Positions 47,432 to 60,811 of a DNA stretch of 64,000 nucleotides are shown in pieces. The translations under genes were made by a program, and so were the position numbers. The DNA is from Psychrobacillus lasiicapitis. GTDB taxonomy: Bacteria > Bacillota > Bacilli > Bacillales_A > Planococcaceae. The notes under the pieces were generated by a model. It was given only the letters and a program-made list of their open reading frames with translations. It did no database searches and had not been told where the DNA came from. Every line of letters begins with the position of its first letter. Positions within the stretch are counted from its first letter, which is position 1. The stretch spans positions 248,001 to 312,000 of the forward strand of contig NZ_VDGH01000006.1 of the NCBI RefSeq assembly GCF_006861795.1, read 5' to 3'.

Positions 47432-48684
47432 ATGACGGGTTCTAGCCAAGTACCGCGTGAAGAGGGAATAGATAATAGTTTAAGCTTGTTAAGAGAAGGA
47501 TATATGTACATTCCAAATAGACGGCATAGCTTTGCAACTAATGTTTTTGAAACACGCTTATTAGGGCAAAAAGCAATTTGTATGGGCGGAGAAGAAGCGG
47601 CTGAGATTTTTTATGATAACGAAAAATTCATAAGAAATGGGGCAGCTCCCAAACGTGTGCAGAAAACATTATTTGGTGAAAAAGGGGTTCAAACCTTAGA
47701 TGGAGAGGCCCATACGCATCGTAAAAAGATGTTCATGTCCTTAATGACTCCGGAAAAGCTAGAAGAACTTAAAAGTATTACTACAAAGCAATGGGCATAT
47801 GCCGCGGAAAAATGGGAACATAAAGAAGACATCATACTTTATGAAGAAAGCAAACAGATCATGTGCCGCACAGCTTGCCAATGGGCAGGTTTCCCATTGG
47901 AGGATGGTGAGGTACTAGAACGAACGAAACAGCTAGGGGATCTATTTGAATCTCCAACTTCAGTAGGCCCAGAGCATTGGAAAGGGAGACATTCACGTAA
48001 AAAGGTGGAAAAATGGGTAGAGGAGATGATTCTACAAGTAAGAGAAGAGACGATGAAATGCTCGGAAGATTCTGCGCTATATACTATTTCTATGCATCGT
48101 GATTTAGAAGGAGAATTATTAAATATAGAAATCGCTGCTGTGGAATTGGTCAATATATTAAGACCAATTGTGGCGATTGCAATATTCATTAATTTTACGG
48201 CGTTGGCCGTACATCATAATCCTAAGGAAAGAGAAAAGCTGAAAACAGGGGACGATCAATACACTTACATGTTTGTTCAAGAAATTAGACGCTACTATCC
48301 ATTCTTTCCTTTAGTGGCAGCTAGAGTAAAGAAAGAATTCACTTGGAAAGATTACACATTTGAAGAAGGAACACTAACCTTGCTTGATTTGTACGGAACA
48401 AATCAGCGAAGCTTTGGGAGGATGCTGATATATTCAAGCCAGAAAGGTTCGCTGACTGGAAGGGAAGTCCATTTAGTTTTATGCCTCAAGGAGGCGGAGA
48501 TTATATGATGGGTCACCGCTGTGCAGGAGAATTTGTCACCATTGAAGTGATGAAGGTAAGCTTAGATTACTTGGCGAATCGTTTATCCTATCGATTTCCG
48601 GCACAAGATTTAAGTTTCAGTATGGTGAGCATGCCAAGTATCCCACATAGCAAAGTAATTCTTCAAAACGTCAAACGATTATAG
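47432..48684 (+). pseudogene. Frameshifted CYP152-type cytochrome P450 (fatty-acid hydroxylase-like)
   Basis: Two frames together make a full P450 of the CYP152/YbdT (peroxygenase) type, about 417 residues. Frame 1 (47432 to ~48412) includes [17 protein letters not shown], the [17 protein letters not shown]-helix and [20 protein letters not shown]. After LLDLYGTN the frame slips; [20 protein letters not shown] and the haem loop [19 protein letters not shown] are in the next frame, to 48684. A small deletion near 48405-48416 explains it. The haem cysteine is lost from the main frame, so it is inactive unless the shift is a sequencing error. Confidence 0.8.
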
Positions 48685-50431: not shown

Positions 50432-50645
50432 TTTTTACACCAGACTTTCTACTAACGGATAGACGAAAAAACGCCTACCGTTACTTATATTACATAGTAA
50501 AAGTAAACAACTAATACTACAATAAAACCCACTATAAAACAACTGATTGAAAAGTAGTATCCTATTAGGCGAATGTAGTGGCTAAATGGTTTTCCATACA
50601 TACTTTATAGAGAAAAAGTGGATAAATGAATGGGTGGCTATTCCT

Positions 50646-51869
50646 ATGAAAACCATTGTGTTTATTGGAAGTTACAAGTATGGAACAAGTAAGGAAGCCC
50701 TGATGATAGCGAAAGAAATGGGATATTATGTCGTTCTGTGCACGGACAAGACTAAGCACATCACGAGCAATTCTGATTTCTCGGAAGTTGATCAGATTGT
50801 GTTGATGGAAGATTTATTAGACGAACAGCAAATGGTGGAAGAAATAACGAGTCTAATGGACCAAGGGAAACAAATTTGCGCATGCGTTAGTTTAATTGAT
50901 CCATATGTTTCTTATGCGGCTAGTATTTCGAAGTATTTTGAGCTAGCTGAAACCTCCACCGATTCCTTAAGATTAATGGAAGACAAAATAGCGATAAGGG
51001 AAAAACTAAAAAACCTTCCGATAACCCCTTTTTATACAATTTTTCAACCTGAGGATTCCCTTGAAAAATTGGAAAATGAATTTAAATCCCTCCTACCCTT
51101 TATTATAAAACCCCCCATATCAAATGGTTCAAAGGATGTACTACTTGTCGAAACGATAGAAAAATTTGCAAATGCTTTAAAGTTGCTGAAAAAAAATCAC
51201 CCAAATAATCCACTGTTAATAGAAGAATTTTTACAGGGACCGCAGTATCTTATTGAGATTTTAGTTTATAACAACGACATTAAATTTCTGGGATTAGTGG
51301 AGCAGGAAGTATTATACAATGGCAGATTTATCGTGACTGGTTATAGGTTTCCGGGAAAAGTTGATATAGCTGAATATCGTAGCTTATGTACTTGCATTTC
51401 CAAAATTATAGAAGAAATAGGTCTTGAAAATGGCTCCTGTCATATGGAGATGAAACTTGTTAGTGGTGAATGGAAACTAATAGAAACAAATCCGAGGATG
51501 GCTGGAGGAGAGATGAATAGAATTATAGAAGAAGGAACCGGGATTAATCTGTTAAAAGAAATATTAAAAGTACATTTAGGTGAGGAGCCTATTCTACTAG
51601 AAAAGAAGAAAAAGCATGTGTATGCCAAATATCTAACGATAGGTTCTCGAGGAAAGCTACTTAAAATTTTAGGAAAAGAGCAGGCTTTAATGCATGAAGG
51701 TGTGAGGCACGTTCACATTAAACCACTTGAAGGAAGAATTCTAACGACCCCATACTCAATGGGAAATCGCTATGCATGTGTCATTGCTGTTTCAGAAACG
51801 GCGGAACAAGCAGTAGGGATTGCCCTAGAAGCTGCAAAAGAAATTAAATTTTATCTGGAACCTTTTTGA
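50646..51869 (+). CDS. ATP-grasp ligase, L-amino-acid-ligase-like (first of two)
   Basis: A 407-residue ATP-grasp enzyme. An N-terminal Rossmann-like part (MKTIVFIGSYKYGTSKEAL) leads to the ATP-grasp core: PFIIKPPISNGSKDVLLVE (Lys for ATP), LIEEFLQGPQYLIEILVYN, and the metal-binding WKLIETNPRMAGGEMNRII. The C-terminal domain (RGKLLKILGKEQAL, RILTTPYSMGNRYACVIAVS) resembles that of BacD-type L-amino-acid ligases, which join two amino acids using ATP. ATG at 50646 is chosen by alignment with the paralogue at 55413. Substrate unknown. It heads a cluster of spore-coat-like and Mur-ligase-like genes. Confidence 0.8.
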   Translation: MKTIVFIGSYKYGTSKEALMIAKEMGYYVVLCTDKTKHITSNSDFSEVDQIVLMEDLLDEQQMVEEITSLMDQGKQICACVSLIDPYVSYAASISKYFELAETSTDSLRLMEDKIAIREKLKNLPITPFYTIFQPEDSLEKLENEFKSLLPFIIKPPISNGSKDVLLVETIEKFANALKLLKKNHPNNPLLIEEFLQGPQYLIEILVYNNDIKFLGLVEQEVLYNGRFIVTGYRFPGKVDIAEYRSLCTCISKIIEEIGLENGSCHMEMKLVSGEWKLIETNPRMAGGEMNRIIEEGTGINLLKEILKVHLGEEPILLEKKKKHVYAKYLTIGSRGKLLKILGKEQALMHEGVRHVHIKPLEGRILTTPYSMGNRYACVIAVSETAEQAVGIALEAAKEIKFYLEPF

Positions 51870-51966
51870 AACCAACATGGTTCAATGAGGTAGTCTGTTT
51901 ACCCGTGTAACCTTCTCAAACCGTAATATTATAAGTACTAAGAGTAGGAAGGGGGTTGAAAATCAA

Positions 51967-52398
51967 ATGAGCAGCGAAATAAAAAGTAACCAATGTATAT
52001 GTGATGCACTCTGTGAATTGAAATTGCTCCAGGATTTATTGAATAATTCCCAAACGAAATTTTTCGGTCGATTACTTGCCAAAATAGCAGGTACCGATAC
52101 GATTCCCTTACTCTTAATAACAAAAAAAGGGGACCCTTTAAGCTTTAGCAGTACGGAAGAGTGTTTTGAAACAATTTATTTTAGAATAGAGTCCATCGAT
52201 AAAGAAAGTTGCTGTACAACAATTTCGTTATTACGTCCTCTTGATATTGAAGGCAATTACTCTAATTCTTTTTGCGATTTGGTTAGATTAGAAAAAACAT
52301 CTATATGTAAGAATGTTGATTTGTCGCGTATTTGTGCCATACAACTATTGGAGACCGAATTGTTAACAAGAAAAATAATTATTGAGCCGAAGTGGTAA
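51967..52398 (+). CDS. CotY/CotZ-type spore coat protein
   Basis: A 143-residue cysteine-containing protein. CICDALCELKLLQDLL at the start and ESIDKESCCTTISLLRPLDIE in the middle match CotY/CotZ-type outer-coat/exosporium proteins, which form disulfide-linked lattices. Cysteines at about 9, 11, 15, 56 and a CC pair near 80 fit that role. AGGAAGGGGGTTG precedes the ATG. It lies between two ligase genes, linking the cluster to the spore surface. It is shorter and more diverged than B. subtilis CotZ, so the exact role is open. Confidence 0.8.
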   Translation: MSSEIKSNQCICDALCELKLLQDLLNNSQTKFFGRLLAKIAGTDTIPLLLITKKGDPLSFSSTEECFETIYFRIESIDKESCCTTISLLRPLDIEGNYSNSFCDLVRLEKTSICKNVDLSRICAIQLLETELLTRKIIIEPKW

Positions 52399-52410
52399 TG
52401 GCATCTCTTC

Positions 52411-52440
52411 ACCCTACAAGTATTGGGGTGTTTTTTTATT
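52411..52440 (+). terminator. Terminator after the coat gene
   Basis: CACCC...GGGGTG with a TACAAGTATT loop and seven following Ts. Short stem but good T-run. Confidence 0.75.
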
Positions 52441-52535
52441 TTTACTAAAAAAACTGAACGTTTGTCCGTATCCAAAGCAGGATGGATGAATTTAATACAA
52501 ATATAATCACACGAATGTTAAAAGGAGAATATTAA

Positions 52536-54704
52536 ATGACAACAATAGGAATGCTGCACCATCGTAAAGATCCAAAATCCGTCATTAAGTCATATGCATA
52601 TGCTGCAGTCGCCAAGGCAGAAGGGGTCAACTTTTTTTACTTTTCACCCGGTGTAGTAAATTTTGTGAATCGATCTATTCGAGGTCAAGTTTATGAAAAT
52701 GGAAGCTGGAAAGAGAAAACCCTGCCTTTTCCAGATGTAATTTATAACGCAGGGAGTCCTGAAAAATTAGCTAAGTCAAAAGAAATCATTGATAAATTGA
52801 AAAGTGAAATTCCATTTACTACAAACTCGATAGGTAACAAATGGAATATAAATGAACGACTCATGGAGGCTAAGGAATTTGCAAGTTACTTAATCCCTTC
52901 TGAAGTGGTAAAGAACGTAGAGAACTTTTACAAGTTCATTTCTTCTTTTCATAAAGTTGTCCTTAAACCGATTGATGGAAGAAAGGGCAAAGGAATCTTT
53001 TTTATTTCGGAAATAGAAAAGGGTTATGAAGTAAGGAAAAACACAGAAAATGAATTTTATACAAGGGAACAACTAAATGTCTTTTTGGAGGATAAGCTAT
53101 CGTCTGGCACTTTTATAGTTCAACCATATATACAATCTGTCAATAAATCTGGTCAAGTGTACGATTTTAGGCTTCATGTCCAAAAAAATGGAGAAGGCAA
53201 GTGGGTGATCACAACTATTTACCCACGTGTAGCTCCAAAAGGATCGATTATTCCCAATATTAATAATGGTGGTTTTACCAATTATTTAGATCCATTTTTA
53301 CTACAGGAATTCAAGGAAGAAGCATTTGATATTAGACGGATGCTAGAGCATTTTTCGTTATCGTTAGCTAATCATTTAGATGAAATACAAATGGTGAAAT
53401 ACGGAGAGGTTATCGATGAAATAGGAATTGACGTTGGACTAGATGAAAATTTAAAAATTTGGATTTATGAAGTAAACTGGCGTCCAGGCTGTCCTCCTGC
53501 TTTTTATTTGGAACTAGATGTAGTAATTCATTCCATTCAATATGCAAAATTTATAGCAGAAAATCAAGTGAAAATAAAAAAGGAAATTAGCAAAGTAAAG
53601 AGGAAAAAAATCGAAGAAAAAGGAGATATACCGATCATTGCAATAACGGGAAGCGCTGGTAAAACAACGACAAAGGCATTCCTTGCATCGATTTTGTCTA
53701 AGAAGTGGAATATTTTTGAATCCAAAGATTATTGGAATACAACAGAGCATACCAAAAAACATGCTGCAGAAATTAATGATGCTCACGAGGCGGTTGTATT
53801 AGAATATGGTATGGCTTATCCAGGGGTTATTACAGAGCATTGTAGCATTATTAAACCAAACATTAGTATAGTGACCAATATCGGTCTTGCCCATGTCGGA
53901 AACTTTGATAGTGATATTAGAGGAGTTGCTCATGCAAAATCCGAACTTATTCACGGGATGGATCAAGAAGGTATCCTTGTTGTAAACAGAGATGATGAAA
54001 ATTCTAAATATTTAGAGACTCAGCAATTTAAAGGAAAAATAATGACAGTTAGTACAAAGTCACCAGCAAACTACAGAGCTTATAAGATTCAATATAAAGA
54101 GAACGGTATGAGTTTCAAAATGAGGTTGCAGCGACAAGAAATTGAACTATTTATCCCTATTTTAGGGGAGCATCATGTATACAATGCATTAAATGCGATT
54201 GCTGTGGCTGATTATTTAGGTTTCACACCAATGGAAATTAAAGCCGGGTTGATTTTTAGAAAGCCACCTAGAAGATTAACAATATATAATTGTCGAGACA
54301 ACATTACAGTAATTGATGACACTGTCCACTCCCATCCACAAGGGGTTCGTGCTGCGTTGGATGTACTAGCTAATATAGGGAAACAACGAAAAATAGCTAT
54401 CATTGGACAAATGAGAGAGTTAGGGGAGTTGAGAGAAGAAGAATATCGGAAAGTCGGCGATTACGTTTATGAAAAAGACATTGATATATTAATCACCTAT
54501 GGATTTAGAACGGAAGAAATTGGTGCTCAAGCGAAAGTAAAAGGATTTCCCTCAAAAAATGTTTATCATTTTCTAAACAAGGAACAATTACATGAATTAT
54601 TGGTAGAGATTGTGGAGAAAGACGATACGATCTTGATCAAAGGAGCAAGTAAAACGAATATGTTTGATACAGTTAAGTTTTTGGATCAAACGTTTAAAGA
54701 ATAA
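52536..54704 (+). CDS. YheC/D-type ATP-grasp fused to a MurF-like ligase
   Basis: A 722-residue fusion. Residues ~1-345 form a YheC/YheD coat-associated ATP-grasp domain (HRKDPKSVIKSYAYAAVAKA, VLKPIDGRKGKGIFFIS, and GIDVGLDENLKIWIYEVNW for metal binding). Residues ~365-722 form a Mur-ligase unit with P-loop ITGSAGKTTTKAF, NIGLAHVGNFDS, GEHHVYNALNAIAVADYL, and VIDDTVHSHPQGVRAALDVL in place of MurF DDAYNANP. ATP-grasp plus Mur ligase in one chain also occurs in cyanophycin synthetase. It could build a peptide- or amide-linked spore polymer, which is inference. AAAGGAG precedes the ATG. Confidence 0.85.
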   Translation: MTTIGMLHHRKDPKSVIKSYAYAAVAKAEGVNFFYFSPGVVNFVNRSIRGQVYENGSWKEKTLPFPDVIYNAGSPEKLAKSKEIIDKLKSEIPFTTNSIGNKWNINERLMEAKEFASYLIPSEVVKNVENFYKFISSFHKVVLKPIDGRKGKGIFFISEIEKGYEVRKNTENEFYTREQLNVFLEDKLSSGTFIVQPYIQSVNKSGQVYDFRLHVQKNGEGKWVITTIYPRVAPKGSIIPNINNGGFTNYLDPFLLQEFKEEAFDIRRMLEHFSLSLANHLDEIQMVKYGEVIDEIGIDVGLDENLKIWIYEVNWRPGCPPAFYLELDVVIHSIQYAKFIAENQVKIKKEISKVKRKKIEEKGDIPIIAITGSAGKTTTKAFLASILSKKWNIFESKDYWNTTEHTKKHAAEINDAHEAVVLEYGMAYPGVITEHCSIIKPNISIVTNIGLAHVGNFDSDIRGVAHAKSELIHGMDQEGILVVNRDDENSKYLETQQFKGKIMTVSTKSPANYRAYKIQYKENGMSFKMRLQRQEIELFIPILGEHHVYNALNAIAVADYLGFTPMEIKAGLIFRKPPRRLTIYNCRDNITVIDDTVHSHPQGVRAALDVLANIGKQRKIAIIGQMRELGELREEEYRKVGDYVYEKDIDILITYGFRTEEIGAQAKVKGFPSKNVYHFLNKEQLHELLVEIVEKDDTILIKGASKTNMFDTVKFLDQTFKE

Positions 54705-54713
54705 TCTTAAAAA

Positions 54714-54758
54714 AACCTGAAAAACGCACTCTTACTAAAAGAGCGTTATTCAGGTTTC
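54714..54758. terminator. Terminator after the fusion gene
   Basis: AACCTGAAAAACGC-CT...AG-GCGTTATTCAGGTT, a long imperfect stem, then TTCTTG. A-rich on the other side, so it may act in both directions. Confidence 0.8.
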
Positions 54759-54847
54759 TTGTATTTGGCTAAGAAACAATAAAAATTTAGACATGTTAAT
54801 AACTTTTTTAAGTAACATAAGTTATGGCAGTTTTTATGATTCGTTAT

Positions 54848-55303
54848 ATAGGGGTAATGCGTCTTAAGACAGAGCTATTATGTGTCCGCTGGGATTTTCG
54901 CTACAGGGTAGACGCTTTCCGCGGGCACGGCTTCAATCTCCTCGTCGCTCACGCTCCTGCGGGGCTTTCAGCTCGTGCTTTTCCCGCTGGAGTCGCCACC
55001 CTTTCGCTACAATCCAGTAGAGTTTGCTAATTACTAAGAAATGATGTACTAGATTTCGTACTATATTGTTTTCTATAGGGAAAACCTATGAATAATTGAA
55101 TGAGACATACTTTAGCAATTATTAGCAAGTTCGATTGATTGAAGCGCAAGGCGGCGACTCCTGTGGGATTAGCGAGGCAGGTGAGACCCCGCACGTAGCG
55201 TTAGCGGAGGAGGAGGCTCACCGCTCGCCCCACGGAAAGCGTCCGCCTGGAGCGGAAATCATGGCGGACATCTTAGTATCTCTTTACGACGCATTATCCC
55301 TAT
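54848..55303. repeat. Fold-back repeat element, copy 3 (inverted)
   Basis: The reverse complement closely matches copy 1 at 18444-18894. Ends are ATAGGGGTAATGCG and the complement of CGCATTATCCCTAT. Two inverted GC-rich arms of about 150 bp flank an AT-rich centre. Located between converging ligase genes. Confidence 0.87.
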
Positions 55304-55382
55304 AATATTCGTCACTCCATGTATCTTTCCCCCTTGCTAAATCGAGCAAAGACTGGAACTACACTTTTGTTTATAAAATTAA

Positions 55383-55408
55383 AAAAAGAGCACCTATAAG
55401 GTGTTCTT
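55383..55408 (-). terminator. Terminator of the second ATP-grasp gene
   Basis: On the minus strand GAACACCTTATAGGTGCTC followed by seven Ts, five bases after the stop. Confidence 0.85.
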
Positions 55409-55412
55409 CGTG

Positions 55413-56642
55413 TCACTCTTCTTCTAAATGAAAAGTAATTTCACTTGCTGCATTATTTGCGAGTTTTTTGGCTTCTTCTAAACTACTACCCACCGCAATG
55501 ACATAAGCATATCGATGCCCCATGGATAATGGTGGCGTTAAAAGAGTTCCTTTTTTAGGCTTTACGTAAACCTCTACGACTCCCGGTGATTTTTTAGCCC
55601 TCGCTTTTCCGGTTACTTTTGCTAGTATTCCTTTCTTGGTGGCAATAACATATTTGGTAAAAACAAACTTCTTAAATTTAGGTAATATAGCAGGGCTTTT
55701 TCCTAAATATAATTTAAGCGTCTCTTCTACTAAATTAATTCCGAATGCTGCTTGAATCATTTTGTTCATGGCACCTCCGGAAATTCTCGGATTAATCTCG
55801 ATTAGTTTCCAACCATTCTTAGCCAAACGGATTTCCAAATGTAAAGCTCCATTTTCAATATTTAATTCTTTAATGATGGATTGAAGAACATTTTCAATTC
55901 CTGTTCTAATCGTTAAAGGAACATTTGCAAGAACACCATAGCCTGTAATGATAAATCGCTTGTTCTTTGTAATTTCTTGTTCAAGAATTCCAACAATACG
56001 AGGTTTCTGTTTGTGAACGAGTACTTCTACCAAATATTGAGCACCATCTATATATTCTTCGATCATTATTGTGGTATCCGGATTCTTACTCAGAAGATTT
56101 TCAATATGCTTTTTTAATTGTTCTTTTCCTTCAGCTAGCAGTACGTCTTTAGATCCGGTAGACTTGGGTGATTTTATAATAATAGGAAAATCAAACTGTT
56201 CACATATTGTTTCTATAGGAATCGTATCGCCTGGGTTAATCAAGAAAAACTTAGGGGTATACGGCTGATCTTTTAAAGCCGACCTTGTCTCCTCTTTATT
56301 TTCCATTATTTCAATGGCTTTAGACAGAACATAATTGTGACAAAATTCATCACAAAGGATGGATGCAGTATGAACAAAAGGGTCCACAAAACTAACGATG
56401 GTTTTTATATCGACGCCAACTTTTTGTAACTTGAAAATTTCTTTTCTCATATCGTCTAACTCATATGTGTTTACAAAAACCATTTTATGGATATCTGTAT
56501 ATTCCTGTCTTTGTTGAATTTGCTTCTCGTTGTTTGTGAAAAGGATGGTAAAGTATCCTAAATCTCCAGCTGCTTTAATCGCTTCCCTGCTAGATCCGGA
56601 TTTGTTTGTGCTGATGAAAATAATTGCTTTCAAACGGCTCAC
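55413..56642 (-). CDS. ATP-grasp ligase, L-amino-acid-ligase-like (second)
   Basis: A 409-residue paralogue of the gene at 50646, same layout throughout. It has AIIFISTNKSGSSREAIKAA at the start and FPIIIKSPKSTGSKDVLLAE (ATP Lys). MIEEYIDGAQYLVEVLVHK and KLIEINPRISGGAMNKMI supply metal ligands, and the C-terminal KGTLLTPPLSMGHRYAYVIA domain follows. All catalytic motifs look intact. It is divergent from the MurF-like gene at 56796 and convergent with the fusion gene. Activation of a carboxylate by ATP and ligation to an amine is expected; substrates unknown. GGAGGGAGTGAGC precedes the ATG. Confidence 0.8.
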   Translation of the reverse strand: MSRLKAIIFISTNKSGSSREAIKAAGDLGYFTILFTNNEKQIQQRQEYTDIHKMVFVNTYELDDMRKEIFKLQKVGVDIKTIVSFVDPFVHTASILCDEFCHNYVLSKAIEIMENKEETRSALKDQPYTPKFFLINPGDTIPIETICEQFDFPIIIKSPKSTGSKDVLLAEGKEQLKKHIENLLSKNPDTTIMIEEYIDGAQYLVEVLVHKQKPRIVGILEQEITKNKRFIITGYGVLANVPLTIRTGIENVLQSIIKELNIENGALHLEIRLAKNGWKLIEINPRISGGAMNKMIQAAFGINLVEETLKLYLGKSPAILPKFKKFVFTKYVIATKKGILAKVTGKARAKKSPGVVEVYVKPKKGTLLTPPLSMGHRYAYVIAVGSSLEEAKKLANNAASEITFHLEEE

Positions 56643-56795
56643 TCCCTCCTGAAAAATTGATAAAGACTTTTCTTTCTATATTTATGACATGTTCTAGCTT
56701 TGGCATAGTTATGTATCACGCAATTATATTCCATTTATCCAGTCAATTTCCGTTTGAAAACATATTATATAGATGAAAGGAGTGTGAATAAACTA

Positions 56796-58175
56796 ATGAA
56801 ATCCCATACAGTCGGCAATATAAGAGCAATCATCTCTGGTGAGTTGGTGCAAGGTTCTGATGAAGTGCTAGTTAAATACGGGGCATACCGTTTAAAACAA
56901 ATAAAAAATCAAAATACCATACTTTTTACTGACAAAAGAATTATTGACTGGAGAAGCCTTAAAAAGTTTTTCCCTTTAGTACTTGCAACAGAGTGGAAAT
57001 ATAATAAAGATGAAATTCCGGAGAATGTAACTGTCATCCAAGTAACGAATGCCGACGAAGCATATTGGAAATTTGTTCGCTACTATCGCAGTCTATTTCA
57101 TATCCCTGTGGTAGCCATAACAGGAACCTCAGGGAAAACAACAACAAAAGAGATGATCAAGCATATTCTTTCAGCAGATAGGATAGTTACAGCTACAAGC
57201 CTTACTAGTAATTCTAGAACAGCAAATCTGCAGTATCTTTTGAGCATAGACGAAGAAACGGATGCGGCTATTTTTGAAACGGCTGTTGGTTCACCAGGGG
57301 ATGTATTAAAAGCAGGGGAATATTTCAAACCTACCATAGGGATCATTACGAACATCGGGGCACATCACCTAAATTATTGCAAAACGCTAGAAGCCTATAT
57401 TGATGCGAAAGGGGAGATGTTACAAATTGTTAATCCGACGGGTGTATTAATTATTAATGCGGAGGATAGCAATACAAGCAAGATTAATATGAGTAGTTTT
57501 CAAGGGAAAATTATTAAAGTTGGAACTCATAGATCTTGTCATTTTCGAGCTCGTAATATTCAGTACTGTCAAGATGGTATGGAATTCAGTGTTAAGCACA
57601 AGAAGAGAAATTATCAAGTATACGTACCTGGACTCGGTGTTCATCAAGTCTATAATGCGCTAGCAGCTATTGCGGCTGTTTATGAAATGGGAGTAACTAT
57701 CCCGGAAGCTGCTTATCAATTAAAAACGTTCCGGAAGTTTAATAAGCAACTGCAAGTGGTGGATGGTATAAATGACTCTGTGATTATAGATGATACGTGG
57801 AGTATAACAACAACCTCTTTAGAAGCAGCATTAAAAGTATTAAATGAAATTGGCAAAGGAAAAAAGAAGGTAGCAATCATAGGGACAATTACTGATTTAG
57901 GTTCATGGGGTTATTTTATTCATGAACAGGCAGGAGATTTAATATACCAGAATGGAGTGGATGTACTCATTACGATAGGAGAGCATGCGAGCATAATAGC
58001 AGACCATGCGGTAAAAAGAGGTTTTACTTCACCGGTCTACACATTTAGGAATGAAGTCCTTGTTTTACATCTATTAAATAAAATTATAGACTCCAATACA
58101 ATTGTTCTGATTAAGGGAGATATGTACAGCCAGCCAATAATTGAGTTAGCTGCATTATTGAGGAAGAAGAAATAA
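56796..58175 (+). CDS. MurF-like ligase, stand-alone (first)
   Basis: About 459 residues. An N-terminal MurF-type domain (VGNIRAIISGELVQGS) precedes the P-loop AITGTSGKTTTKEM (~108-117). Then follow NIGAHHLNYCKTLEAYIDAKGE split over two motifs, LGVHQVYNALAAIAAVYEMG, and IIDDTWSITTTSLEAALKVL. In canonical MurF the last motif reads DDAYNANP, so this enzyme probably does not handle the normal UDP-MurNAc tripeptide. AAAGGAG lies 13 bases before the chosen ATG; an in-frame GTG at 56784 sits too close to the site. It is followed by a close homologue. Confidence 0.8.
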   Translation: MKSHTVGNIRAIISGELVQGSDEVLVKYGAYRLKQIKNQNTILFTDKRIIDWRSLKKFFPLVLATEWKYNKDEIPENVTVIQVTNADEAYWKFVRYYRSLFHIPVVAITGTSGKTTTKEMIKHILSADRIVTATSLTSNSRTANLQYLLSIDEETDAAIFETAVGSPGDVLKAGEYFKPTIGIITNIGAHHLNYCKTLEAYIDAKGEMLQIVNPTGVLIINAEDSNTSKINMSSFQGKIIKVGTHRSCHFRARNIQYCQDGMEFSVKHKKRNYQVYVPGLGVHQVYNALAAIAAVYEMGVTIPEAAYQLKTFRKFNKQLQVVDGINDSVIIDDTWSITTTSLEAALKVLNEIGKGKKKVAIIGTITDLGSWGYFIHEQAGDLIYQNGVDVLITIGEHASIIADHAVKRGFTSPVYTFRNEVLVLHLLNKIIDSNTIVLIKGDMYSQPIIELAALLRKKK

Positions 58176-58328
58176 TGCATCACCGCACCAAGCTACTAAT
58201 TTAACCGATAATACTGTTTTGAAATATTGGTGATAAATAAATTTAAAAAGATGGACAAACACTGTGCACATTTCATACCTAATCATCTAAAAACTGATTT
58301 CATACTATACAAAGGGAAGGAGGGTACT

Positions 58329-59723
58329 ATGAAACCTTTACGTGTGAAAGAAATCCGGAATTTATTACAAGGGGAACTAATAAGTGGTTCCGAACTTTGG
58401 AATGTAAGTAATGCTATTTACTATAATCGGCATGAACTAACAACACGAAATTCACTAATGTTTGTAAGCAGAAGTGATTCTATTAACTGGCAGGAAATTA
58501 ATAATAAGGGACCTTCTCTTGTGATTTCAGATAAGCCTTCCTCAGAATTGAAAGATGCTCTATCGGATACAACCGTTATAAGAGTAAGAAGTCTCGTGCA
58601 AGCGTACTGGAAATTCATGGATTACTATAGAAATCTATTTGAAATACCAGTAGTTGCAATAACAGGGACATGTGGTAAAACTACAACGAAGGAAATGATC
58701 AAACATATTTTAAGTAAAAAATGGAATGTGCAAGCATCTATTAGCAGTAAAAATGAACCGCGTCAATCTTTACCTTATTTGATGGGCATTGCTGAAAACA
58801 CAAATGCAGCTGTTTTTGAGCTTGGATTGGGTAATACCGGGAATATAAAACATCAGTGCAATATTTATCAGCCGACAATTGGTATTATTACAAATATCGG
58901 TGTTCATCATTTAGATGGTTGTGGAAATCTGGAAGGATATATAAAAGCGAAGTCAGAAATAGTGGATGGTATAAAGAAAAACGGCACATTAATACTAAAT
59001 GCCGATGATGCTAATACTAAAAAAGTTCCGTTGCAATCATTTAAAGGGAAAATAATTTATTTTGGAGTAAGTGAGAAGTCTCATTTTAGAGCTTCTAATA
59101 TTAAATTCGCAAATAATGGAATGAATTTTCAAATTCATATTTCCAATAAAAAATATAATGCATTTATACCAGGGTATGGAGAGCATCAAGTGTATAATGC
59201 GCTAGCAGCAATCGCAGCTGTAAATGAAATGGGGATGGATATAAATGAAGCCATTTCCCAATTAGCGACCTATAAAAATATGACAAGACACCTAGAATTT
59301 TCAGATGGTCTAGGTGGAAGTACAATTATAGATGATACTTGGACAAATAATCCTACATCTGTCGAAGCTGCATTAAAGGTGCTAGATTCAATTGGGCAGG
59401 GTAAAAAAGTCATCCTTGTACTCGGCGATATTAAGCGATTAGGAAACTTTGAAAAGAAATATCATCGAGAAATTGGAAGTATGGTTGCGAAAAGAAATAT
59501 TCATACACTTATTACAATAGGGAGCAAAGCAGAAGATATTGCAAAACAAGCAAAAAAAGATGGAACAGAGGCAACAGTCCATATTTTTTATGATGTCAAA
59601 GGGGTTATTGATATATTAGATCCTATCCTTGACGAAAATTCCATATTATTGATAAAAGGTCCAATGTCGAGCCGATCGATGATTGAATTCGCCAATAGCT
59701 TGAAAGAAAATAAAAGAAAATAA
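58329..59723 (+). CDS. MurF-like ligase, stand-alone (second)
   Basis: A 464-residue homologue of the preceding gene. N-terminal VKEIRNLLQGELISGSE, P-loop AITGTCGKTTTKEM (with an unusual Cys), NIGVHHLDGCGNLEGYIKAK, GYGEHQVYNALAAIAAVNEM and IIDDTWTNNPTSVEAALKVL, nearer to the MurF DDAYNANPDS motif than its neighbour. GGAAGGAGGG precedes the ATG at 58329. The pair lies about 150 bases apart and probably shares a transcript. Cell-wall MurF is usually single and located with ddl, so these are likely specialised spore or secondary-metabolite ligases. Confidence 0.8.
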   Translation: MKPLRVKEIRNLLQGELISGSELWNVSNAIYYNRHELTTRNSLMFVSRSDSINWQEINNKGPSLVISDKPSSELKDALSDTTVIRVRSLVQAYWKFMDYYRNLFEIPVVAITGTCGKTTTKEMIKHILSKKWNVQASISSKNEPRQSLPYLMGIAENTNAAVFELGLGNTGNIKHQCNIYQPTIGIITNIGVHHLDGCGNLEGYIKAKSEIVDGIKKNGTLILNADDANTKKVPLQSFKGKIIYFGVSEKSHFRASNIKFANNGMNFQIHISNKKYNAFIPGYGEHQVYNALAAIAAVNEMGMDINEAISQLATYKNMTRHLEFSDGLGGSTIIDDTWTNNPTSVEAALKVLDSIGQGKKVILVLGDIKRLGNFEKKYHREIGSMVAKRNIHTLITIGSKAEDIAKQAKKDGTEATVHIFYDVKGVIDILDPILDENSILLIKGPMSSRSMIEFANSLKENKRK

Positions 59724-59881: not shown

Positions 59882-60811
59882 TTAAAAAACGCGTTTTGCT
59901 GTTATATAATGCTGATTGTAATAATCAACAAATAGCACTCTTGTTATAACTCCGTTTGAATTTGGAATAATGATACGATGATCCCCCGCGTAAATTGCTA
60001 CCATAGTTGGTGTTTTAGATCCTTTAGTACTGTTAAAGAAGATTAAATCACCTTTCTTTAAGTTGGAGCGAGATACGGTTGTTCCTTTTTTCATTAGTTC
60101 TTTCATATTAGTTGTTCCTAATTTAACACCATTTGCTTTGTACACATAATCCACAAACCCAGTAGCAGTGAAACGTAATGCTGCAGCATTATTGACATTA
60201 CCCATCTTCACTTTGCTCTTTAAACTGATCGTTTTTGCGACGATATTATCCCCTTTAGTTGCAGGGTTTGCAGGAAGTAGAGTCGGTAATACTCTTCTTG
60301 CTGTAATATAGTTATCTTTATAATATGGCTTACTATTTAAGTCTGAAATAACAATATTTTGTTTTGGGTCTGCCATGTGAATGACTTTATTGTTCCCTAT
60401 ATACATGGCAACGTGATTTGGCACTTTACCACCTCTACTATCAAAGAAAAGAAGATCCCCTTTTTGTAGTTGAGCTCTAGAAACGGCTGTTCCTTGTTTC
60501 ATCATATAATCTTCATTATACGTTCCAAGGTCTACTCCATTTTTCTCAAAAATGTACATTAGAAAACTTGCACATGAAAATTTGTAAGGATATATATCCT
60601 TGTAAACTGTATTACTATAAGTAGCCTTGCCTATTAAACTCTTAGCTGTTTGAATTAATTGATTGGCCTTTGCTTCTACTGCTTGTTGGTTATGCTGACT
60701 ATTAACGGCTGCAGCTGAAGCCTCTATTGGATGAATAACAGTAGGAGAAACCCCTAATGCACTAAAACCGATTACTACTGATAATGTAGTTGTGATGAAT
60801 TTTTTTTTCAT
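59882..60811 (-). CDS. Secreted protein with two NlpC/P60 domains, second one degenerate
   Basis: A 309-residue protein. A signal peptide (hydrophobic ~6-24, ASAAA near 33) precedes NlpC/P60 domain 1 (residues ~48-175) with Cys80 (KFSCASF), His133 (PNHVAMYIG) and His145. Domain 2 (~195-309) aligns well, but these become Ala216 (RFTATGF), Met270 (PTMVAIYAG) and Ile282, so it cannot be a peptidase. NlpC/P60 enzymes cut D-Glu-DAP bonds in peptidoglycan; the dead copy may bind substrate. Both domains share VSR-(A/S)NLKKGDL-(L/I)FF. AGGAGGGACATA precedes the ATG. It could act in growth or spore germination. Confidence 0.87.
   Translation of the reverse strand: MKKKFITTTLSVVIGFSALGVSPTVIHPIEASAAAVNSQHNQQAVEAKANQLIQTAKSLIGKATYSNTVYKDIYPYKFSCASFLMYIFEKNGVDLGTYNEDYMMKQGTAVSRAQLQKGDLLFFDSRGGKVPNHVAMYIGNNKVIHMADPKQNIVISDLNSKPYYKDNYITARRVLPTLLPANPATKGDNIVAKTISLKSKVKMGNVNNAAALRFTATGFVDYVYKANGVKLGTTNMKELMKKGTTVSRSNLKKGDLIFFNSTKGSKTPTMVAIYAGDHRIIIPNSNGVITRVLFVDYYNQHYITAKRVF

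Follow-up and report, generated by a model that had tools for sequence, protein, structure and literature searches.

What might a bacterium build with ATP-grasp and MurF-like ligases encoded next to a spore-coat-type protein? This question is raised by a stretch of 64,000 nucleotides from Psychrobacillus lasiicapitis (contig NZ_VDGH01000006.1, positions 248,001 to 312,000; in the following called the window, to which all coordinates refer), in which a cluster of six genes, here named LAL_A, CotZ, fusion, LAL_B, MurF2 and MurF3, occupies positions 50649-59723. The analysis confirms the cluster, shows that it is conserved, and ties it to sporulation; judging from its sequences, we consider it likely that it forms amide bonds on substrates other than those linked to uridine diphosphate (UDP). 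The best single reading, to which we give a little less than even confidence, is a mother-cell line of amide ligases that would build or decorate an amino-acid or peptide polymer of the spore envelope.

Every open reading frame (ORF) of the cluster is uninterrupted in the window, and all six score above the cut-offs of Pfam families, namely LAL_C2 plus ATP-grasp (twice), Spore-coat_CotZ, ATPgrasp_YheCD joined to Mur_ligase_M/C, and Mur_ligase_M/C (twice). LAL_A (50649..51869, plus strand; LAL_C2 57.4 bits, ATP-grasp_4 51.1 bits, ETNPR motif) is an ATP-grasp enzyme of the L-amino-acid ligase (LAL) type and is followed on the same strand by a CotZ-family protein of 143 residues (51967..52398; PF10612, 47.3 bits, cut-off 24) and by the fusion (52536..54704), for which Pfam, alignments, and structure matches place a YheC/D ATP-grasp domain at approximately residues 1-345 and MurF-like M and C domains at approximately residues 364-722. 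LAL_B (55413..56642, minus strand; LAL_C2 78.6 bits), the second LAL-type ATP-grasp enzyme, is divergent from MurF2 (56796..58175, plus strand; Mur_ligase_M 132 bits), behind which lies MurF3 (58329..59723, plus strand; Mur_ligase_M 139.8 bits); both are MurF-like ligases with a degenerate N-terminal domain. From ribosome-site spacing and relatives, positions 50649, 56796, and 58329 are the likely start codons of LAL_A, MurF2, and MurF3. A gene for an NlpC/P60 hydrolase with two PF00877 stretches (59882..60811, minus strand) is counted in the set because it is conserved in 69 of the 80 loci described below. The six families named in the preliminary description (two LAL-type, one coat-type, one YheC/D::MurF-like, and two MurF-like genes) were therefore all recovered, and the catalytic motifs that it had called intact are so: ExNPR is kept in both LALs, and the P-loop Lys, Glu, His, Lys, and Asp-Asp residues of the Mur core are invariant in 38 aligned fusions and 37 aligned MurF2/MurF3 proteins (chosen rows, a subset of the orthologues). 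A profile search of the whole genome (assembly of 4.49 Mb) gave one YheC/D match, two LAL_C2 matches, and two CotZ-family matches, and the sole YheC/D, both LALs, and one of the two CotZ genes all lie inside the cluster. SpoIVA is present as well, and the genome therefore carries a marker of sporulation.

Conservation of the neighbourhood in relatives had been set beforehand as a test, and it was found. A scan of named genomes for relatives of the fusion returned 127, of which 80 were kept (47 were not) as loci of about 20 kb, 12 of them being shorter than 20 kb. In these 80 loci, the N-terminal half of the fusion occurs 79 times and the C-terminal half 80 times, accompanied by LAL_B in 77, MurF2 in 70, CotZ in 65, and MurF3 in 61, and a LAL lies on the minus strand in 76 and on the plus strand in 39. 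A LAL of some kind is found in all 68 of the loci of at least 20 kb. Eight flanking genes, on the other hand, are each retained in 1-3 of the 80 loci. A chance neighbourhood is ruled out by this difference, and because the neighbourhood persists across 14 named genera while its flanks do not, the grouping goes beyond chance. These genera include Psychrobacillus, Lysinibacillus, Sporosarcina, Neobacillus, Lederbergia, Domibacillus, and Solibacillus, to which a Clostridia metagenome-assembled genome is added. The nearest named relative among those returned at the locus is Psychrobacillus sp. NEAU-3TGS, with a fusion protein 97% identical. Among 61 genomes (the own and 60 relatives), a full-length fusion is present in 16, comprising 13 of the 19 genomes that belong to the genus and 3 from elsewhere in the family, and the 15 from relatives show 68-97% identity. 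In addition, a second YheC/D gene is found in 40 of the 80 loci and a small Cys-containing protein of about 144 residues (for example L079:16271-16705) in 34.

More distant loci show the same families in other arrangements. The Clostridia assembly (L144) has a compact same-strand run YheC/D-MurF-MurF-LAL, in which both MurF-like genes lack domain 1, and a Bacillus locus (L145) carries YheC/D and MurF as split genes adjoining LAL_B. All five loci that hold YheC/D alone combine it with LAL and CotZ, and no MurF-like gene was found in the 20 kb read at any of the five; the older core therefore seems to be LAL-CotZ-YheC/D. Three adjacent genes of a distant SpoIVA-positive genome (G045, L061:8537-12718) encode a LAL, a MurF3-like protein, and another LAL, and the 20 kb read there gave no CotZ or YheC/D match.

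MurF is the best profile and structure match of the MurF-like proteins, with which they share the fold and the catalytic core. The curated MurF model TIGR01143, however, gives the fusion 263.3, MurF2 237.4, and MurF3 266.7 bits, all below its cut-off of 288.6. The model of MurF3 (predicted local distance difference test score 93.2) matches MurF 4qf5 at a template modelling score of 0.84-0.85. In the fusion (ATPgrasp_YheCD, PF14398, 206.8 bits, cut-off 26.8), the Mur part begins at the ATP-binding domain, and YheC/D stands in place of the UDP-sugar domain; MurF2 and MurF3 retain an N-terminal domain of UDP-sugar-domain length. The motifs [DN][ST]R and [ND]GH belong to the UDP-sugar-binding N-terminal domain of MurF, and before the P-loop they were found in 0 of 37 MurF2/MurF3 rows as compared to 12 of 12 housekeeping MurFs. 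The acceptor-side motif is altered as well, for example to DDTVHSHP in 34 of 38 fusions. A tree of 85 rows (up to 18 per large group, after a P-loop and length filter, L052 being left out), which carries a long-branch warning elsewhere, splits the 12 housekeeping MurF rows by a 100/100 branch from the other 73. Ordinary MurF paralogues are ruled out by the curated score below cut-off, the motif loss, and the separate branch. Action of the MurF-like genes on normal UDP-muramyl peptides (UDP-MurNAc-peptides), which the preliminary description had regarded as incompatible with its idea, was thus addressed at the level of sequence only, where the UDP-sugar domain is absent (fusion) or its motifs are lost (MurF2 and MurF3).

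Among the 50 structure matches shown for the fusion model, only cyanophycin synthetases (CphA1), which polymerise Asp and Arg, align across both halves, and they likewise hold ATP-grasp and then Mur-ligase domains in one chain. The CphA1 entries 7wae, 7lgq, 7lg5, and 7lgj cover residues 12-16 to 721-722 of the model with 430-545 aligned positions, the alignments beginning at CphA residues 162-164. The fusion differs by its YheC/D-type ATP-grasp, and its Mur half is nearest to MurF (20-29% identity). A cyanophycin synthetase proper is ruled out by TIGR02068, which scores 71.4 bits, on the Mur half only, against a cut-off of 850. Of the resemblance to cyanophycin synthetase drawn earlier, domain order and fold have held up, but membership in the family has not.

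The link to sporulation is seen both in gene distribution and upstream of several genes. Among 200 genomes of the family, 154 carry SpoIVA and 62 a full-length fusion, all of the latter falling in the SpoIVA-positive set (62 of 154 versus 0 of 46 SpoIVA-negative genomes; Fisher p 2.7e-9, a statistic that ignores relatedness). The 62 are a hand tally of 60 genomes with one full-length match plus G151 and G156, where both halves lie in one frame; G077 and G092, in which the Mur half lies in a frame of more than 800 residues, were left out. In the window, a motif scan places SigK-type -10 boxes on the plus strand upstream of LAL_A (CATACTTTA, 50599..50607), MurF2 (CATATTATA, 56761..56769), and MurF3 (CATACTATA, 58301..58309). 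The box CATANNNTA, which follows the SigK -10 consensus, was scored at -70 to -24 of the start codon in those orthologues for which 100 or more upstream bases were available and whose start codon lay close to the aligned one. The control consisted of 489 ORFs, each counted from its first start codon, although the real start may lie elsewhere. Boxes were found in 21 of 24 LAL_A orthologues (24 of 39 for all plus-strand LALs), 48 of 69 MurF2, and 24 of 60 MurF3 as compared to 11 of 489 control ORFs, and mononucleotide-shuffled upstream regions agree with the excess for these three genes. CotZ reaches 13 of 65 and, with the relaxed box HATANNNTA, 40 of 65; the small Cys-containing protein has the relaxed box in 31 of 32 cases, versus 55 of 489 in the control. 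An AC -35 element at spacer 17 accompanies 15 of 25 MurF3 sites, 6 of 21 LAL_A sites, and a fraction of 0.02 of 47 MurF2 sites. Upstream of the fusion, a recurring stretch like GAATTTAATA or GAATGTAATG, which is not a SigK box, appears in most of the 12 named loci inspected.

How does this relate to systems already described? The nearest earlier prediction reportedly comes from a 2009 amidoligase survey, in which YheC/D proteins were predicted to act in spore-wall or capsule modification. YheC and YheD of Bacillus subtilis share the PF14398 ATP-grasp family with the fusion; here, however, YheC/D forms one chain with a MurF-like ligase and has LAL, CotZ-type, and MurF-like genes as neighbours. 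As stated in excerpts of the respective papers, YheD forms a shell around the spore, its function being given as undetermined (PMC7911427), yheC and yheD belong to the SigE regulon and are upregulated by SpoIIID (PMC517825), and a survey of sporulation genes names YheD and CotZ in connection with coat assembly (PMC3533761). L-Amino acid ligases of the BL00235 type have LAL_C2 and ATP-grasp domains and the ExNPR motif in common with LAL_A and LAL_B, which match solved LALs only remotely and differ by their place in a spore-linked cluster. No description of the cluster was found in the titles and abstracts of the open-licence literature searched.

A further parallel is provided by CapB/PgsB of poly-gamma-glutamate synthesis, an amino-acid-polymerising Mur-family ligase that goes with CapA/PgsA and, together with CphA and FPGS, is among the 12 groups of the Mur-domain family listed in an excerpt of a recent survey (PMC11915815). 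The cluster differs in that its ligases are MurF-like by profile and have ATP-grasp partners instead of a CapA gene. The one PGA_cap (CapA/PgsA-type) gene of the genome above cut-off lies on another contig among neighbours that, inspected by eye at the beginning of their sequences, look unrelated. Lone relatives of the fusion's Mur half, by contrast, stand directly beside a PGA_cap gene in 3 of 5 distant genomes, the other two loci having been judged by eye. In these three loci (L053, L054, and L056, from distant genomes of the class), the lone MurF-like genes have no UDP-sugar domain, and by their sequences the pairs possibly represent an undescribed polyamide system; at one of the three, the opposite flank carries an NlpC/P60-like gene 26% identical to that of the window.

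We infer the joint action, location, substrates, and product of the cluster as follows. The set, whose enzymes appear to have been repurposed from cell-wall synthesis, would act as a line of amide ligases serving the spore envelope, probably in the mother cell and at a late stage of sporulation. In it, LAL-type enzymes may make or couple small amino-acid units, and the MurF-like ligases, which lack the usual UDP-sugar recognition, would add these units to a non-nucleotide acceptor, in parallel to the addition by MurF of an ATP-grasp-made dipeptide in wall synthesis. With two ATP-dependent ligase sites in one chain, the fusion might alternate between two amide-forming steps in the manner of cyanophycin synthetase, acting on one growing chain or side chain, while the CotZ-type protein could serve as scaffold or attachment layer and the NlpC/P60 enzyme could trim or release the product. 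Amide synthesis by ATP-grasp and Mur ligases is of a kind already known, and the cluster is not a categorically new system. A stronger version, in which a previously undescribed spore-surface amino-acid or peptide polymer is made by an ATP-grasp/MurF polymerase of an origin separate from that of cyanophycin synthetase and gives YheC/D its first biochemical role, is conceivable, though we regard it as rather doubtful.

Several observations weigh against a spore-envelope assembly line. The cluster is not one operon, since LAL_B and NlpC/P60 lie on the opposite strand. SigK-type boxes occur in 20 of 73 minus-strand LALs and, with little or no excess, in 6 of 74 fusions and 1 of 63 NlpC/P60 genes, and the AC -35 element is matched at part of the box sites only. 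By sequence, SigK boxes thus lend good support at some genes and modest support at LAL_B, whereas the fusion and NlpC/P60 have weak support or none; the sporulation expression anticipated in the preliminary description is backed by these proxies in part, through SpoIVA co-occurrence and boxes at some genes, but not at the fusion and NlpC/P60. Of the SpoIVA-positive family genomes, 92 of 154 have no full-length fusion, which therefore appears as an accessory of spores, and 6 of 19 genus genomes gave none either. A LAL_A-type gene is found in 24 of 80 loci by a best-hit count that omits upstream LALs nearer to LAL_B, and in the nearest relative (L070 and L032, the same locus) LAL_A consists of two adjacent ORFs. 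For this split, gene damage or an assembly error is possible. Root-mean-square deviations of 17-25 against CphA1 suggest that the halves of the modelled fusion are differently or unreliably arranged, and the fold comparison tests the ATP-grasp half poorly. No CapA/PgsA-type gene was detected by Pfam among the window proteins scanned. Finally, since in some genera the surroundings of the cluster repeatedly hold transporter genes, an exported product is still conceivable.

It might be argued that no free polymer is made at all and that the YheC/D and MurF-like ligases instead modify coat proteins, such as the CotZ-type or the small Cys-containing one, with amino acids or short peptides. The small protein is a candidate spore-surface protein or substrate by its sequence context: it co-occurs with the second YheC/D gene (both in 33 loci, the protein alone in 1, YheC/D alone in 7, neither in 39). 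Protein modification would also suit the weak similarity of the fusion to the TTL profile (23.9 bits). However, the small protein had no match in the window's genome, in a search made without positive control, and the usual substrates of MurF-type ligases are peptidic ones, small or polymeric, so that we regard protein modification as unlikely. A role in sporulation-specific peptidoglycan, with the MurF-like enzymes and LALs serving cortex precursors as dedicated forms of MurF and D-Ala-D-Ala ligase, and with NlpC/P60 as the matching endopeptidase, would fit MurF being the closest profile and the fact that NlpC/P60 enzymes commonly cleave wall stem peptides; many hosts, moreover, are Planococcaceae, in which vegetative and cortex peptidoglycans are reported to differ. 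The missing UDP-binding domain of the fusion, the loss of its motifs from MurF2 and MurF3, the branch separate from housekeeping MurF, the many SpoIVA-positive family genomes that do without the fusion, and the CotZ-family gene in most loci all speak against cortex precursors as the product, which makes this explanation distinctly improbable.

LALs in characterised systems make dipeptides, and LAL_B matches the L-amino acid ligase 3vot (E 2.5e-9); the LALs and MurF-like ligases might accordingly yield a diffusible peptide or small metabolite of sporulation, for example a bacilysin-like dipeptide. Transporter genes would suit such a product, with an ABC-transporter-like family (named by eye) in 27 and a small-multidrug-resistance family in 18 of the 80 loci and an EamA transporter adjoining LAL_A in the window. 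These families, however, lie mostly upstream of the core (medians of 3.7 and 8.0 kb, with the fusion at 10 kb), EamA is retained in 2 of 80 loci, a CotZ-family gene belongs to the set, and three MurF-like units exceed the needs of a dipeptide; a diffusible product is accordingly quite unlikely. Teichuronopeptide-like decoration of a spore polysaccharide with amino acids would be in line with the match of the fusion's ATP-grasp half to PF14397 (sugar-transfer-associated ATP-grasp; 34.8 bits, cut-off 31.4), but no glycosyltransferase was recognised in the 25 largest unassigned families, each inspected by eye at the beginning of a single sequence, and we deem this hardly probable.

Several further features of the loci were noted. 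The first domain of the NlpC/P60 protein has Cys80 and His133, which are kept in 65 and 67 of 70 aligned proteins, respectively; the second domain has no aligned Cys, and the N-terminus looks like a signal peptide (by eye). In one genome of the genus, an additional MurF2-like gene at another place (L063) also adjoins an NlpC/P60 gene, and this recurrence hints that the product may have bonds that NlpC/P60 could cut. The CotZ-type protein of the cluster scores below the NCBIfam CotZ_rel equivalog cut-off (31 versus 90 bits), and a second, stronger CotZ match lies elsewhere in the genome. In two members of the small Cys-containing protein that were scanned, no Pfam family was found. In Neobacillus bataviensis, the fusion is adjoined by a BclA_C protein (L079:12311-12745), which, like the small Cys-containing protein, resembles proteins of the spore surface. 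Between the fusion and LAL_B, positions 54870-55300 of the window hold an intergenic repeat with 112 DNA matches in the own genome. These include many copies of 80-99% identity dispersed over the genome, and the opposite strand gives weaker ones. A P450-like ORF (named by eye) at 47432-48508 is shorter than the copy of the nearest relative (325 of 358 residues matched).

If the cluster indeed acts as an amide-ligase line of the spore envelope, the spores of many Bacilli would carry enzymatically built amide-linked material that is undescribed in the literature searched. YheC/D proteins would gain a testable role, the function of the B. subtilis protein being given as undetermined in the excerpt cited above (PMC7911427), and the Mur-ligase family would gain a branch beyond the 12 groups listed in the excerpt of the recent survey (PMC11915815).

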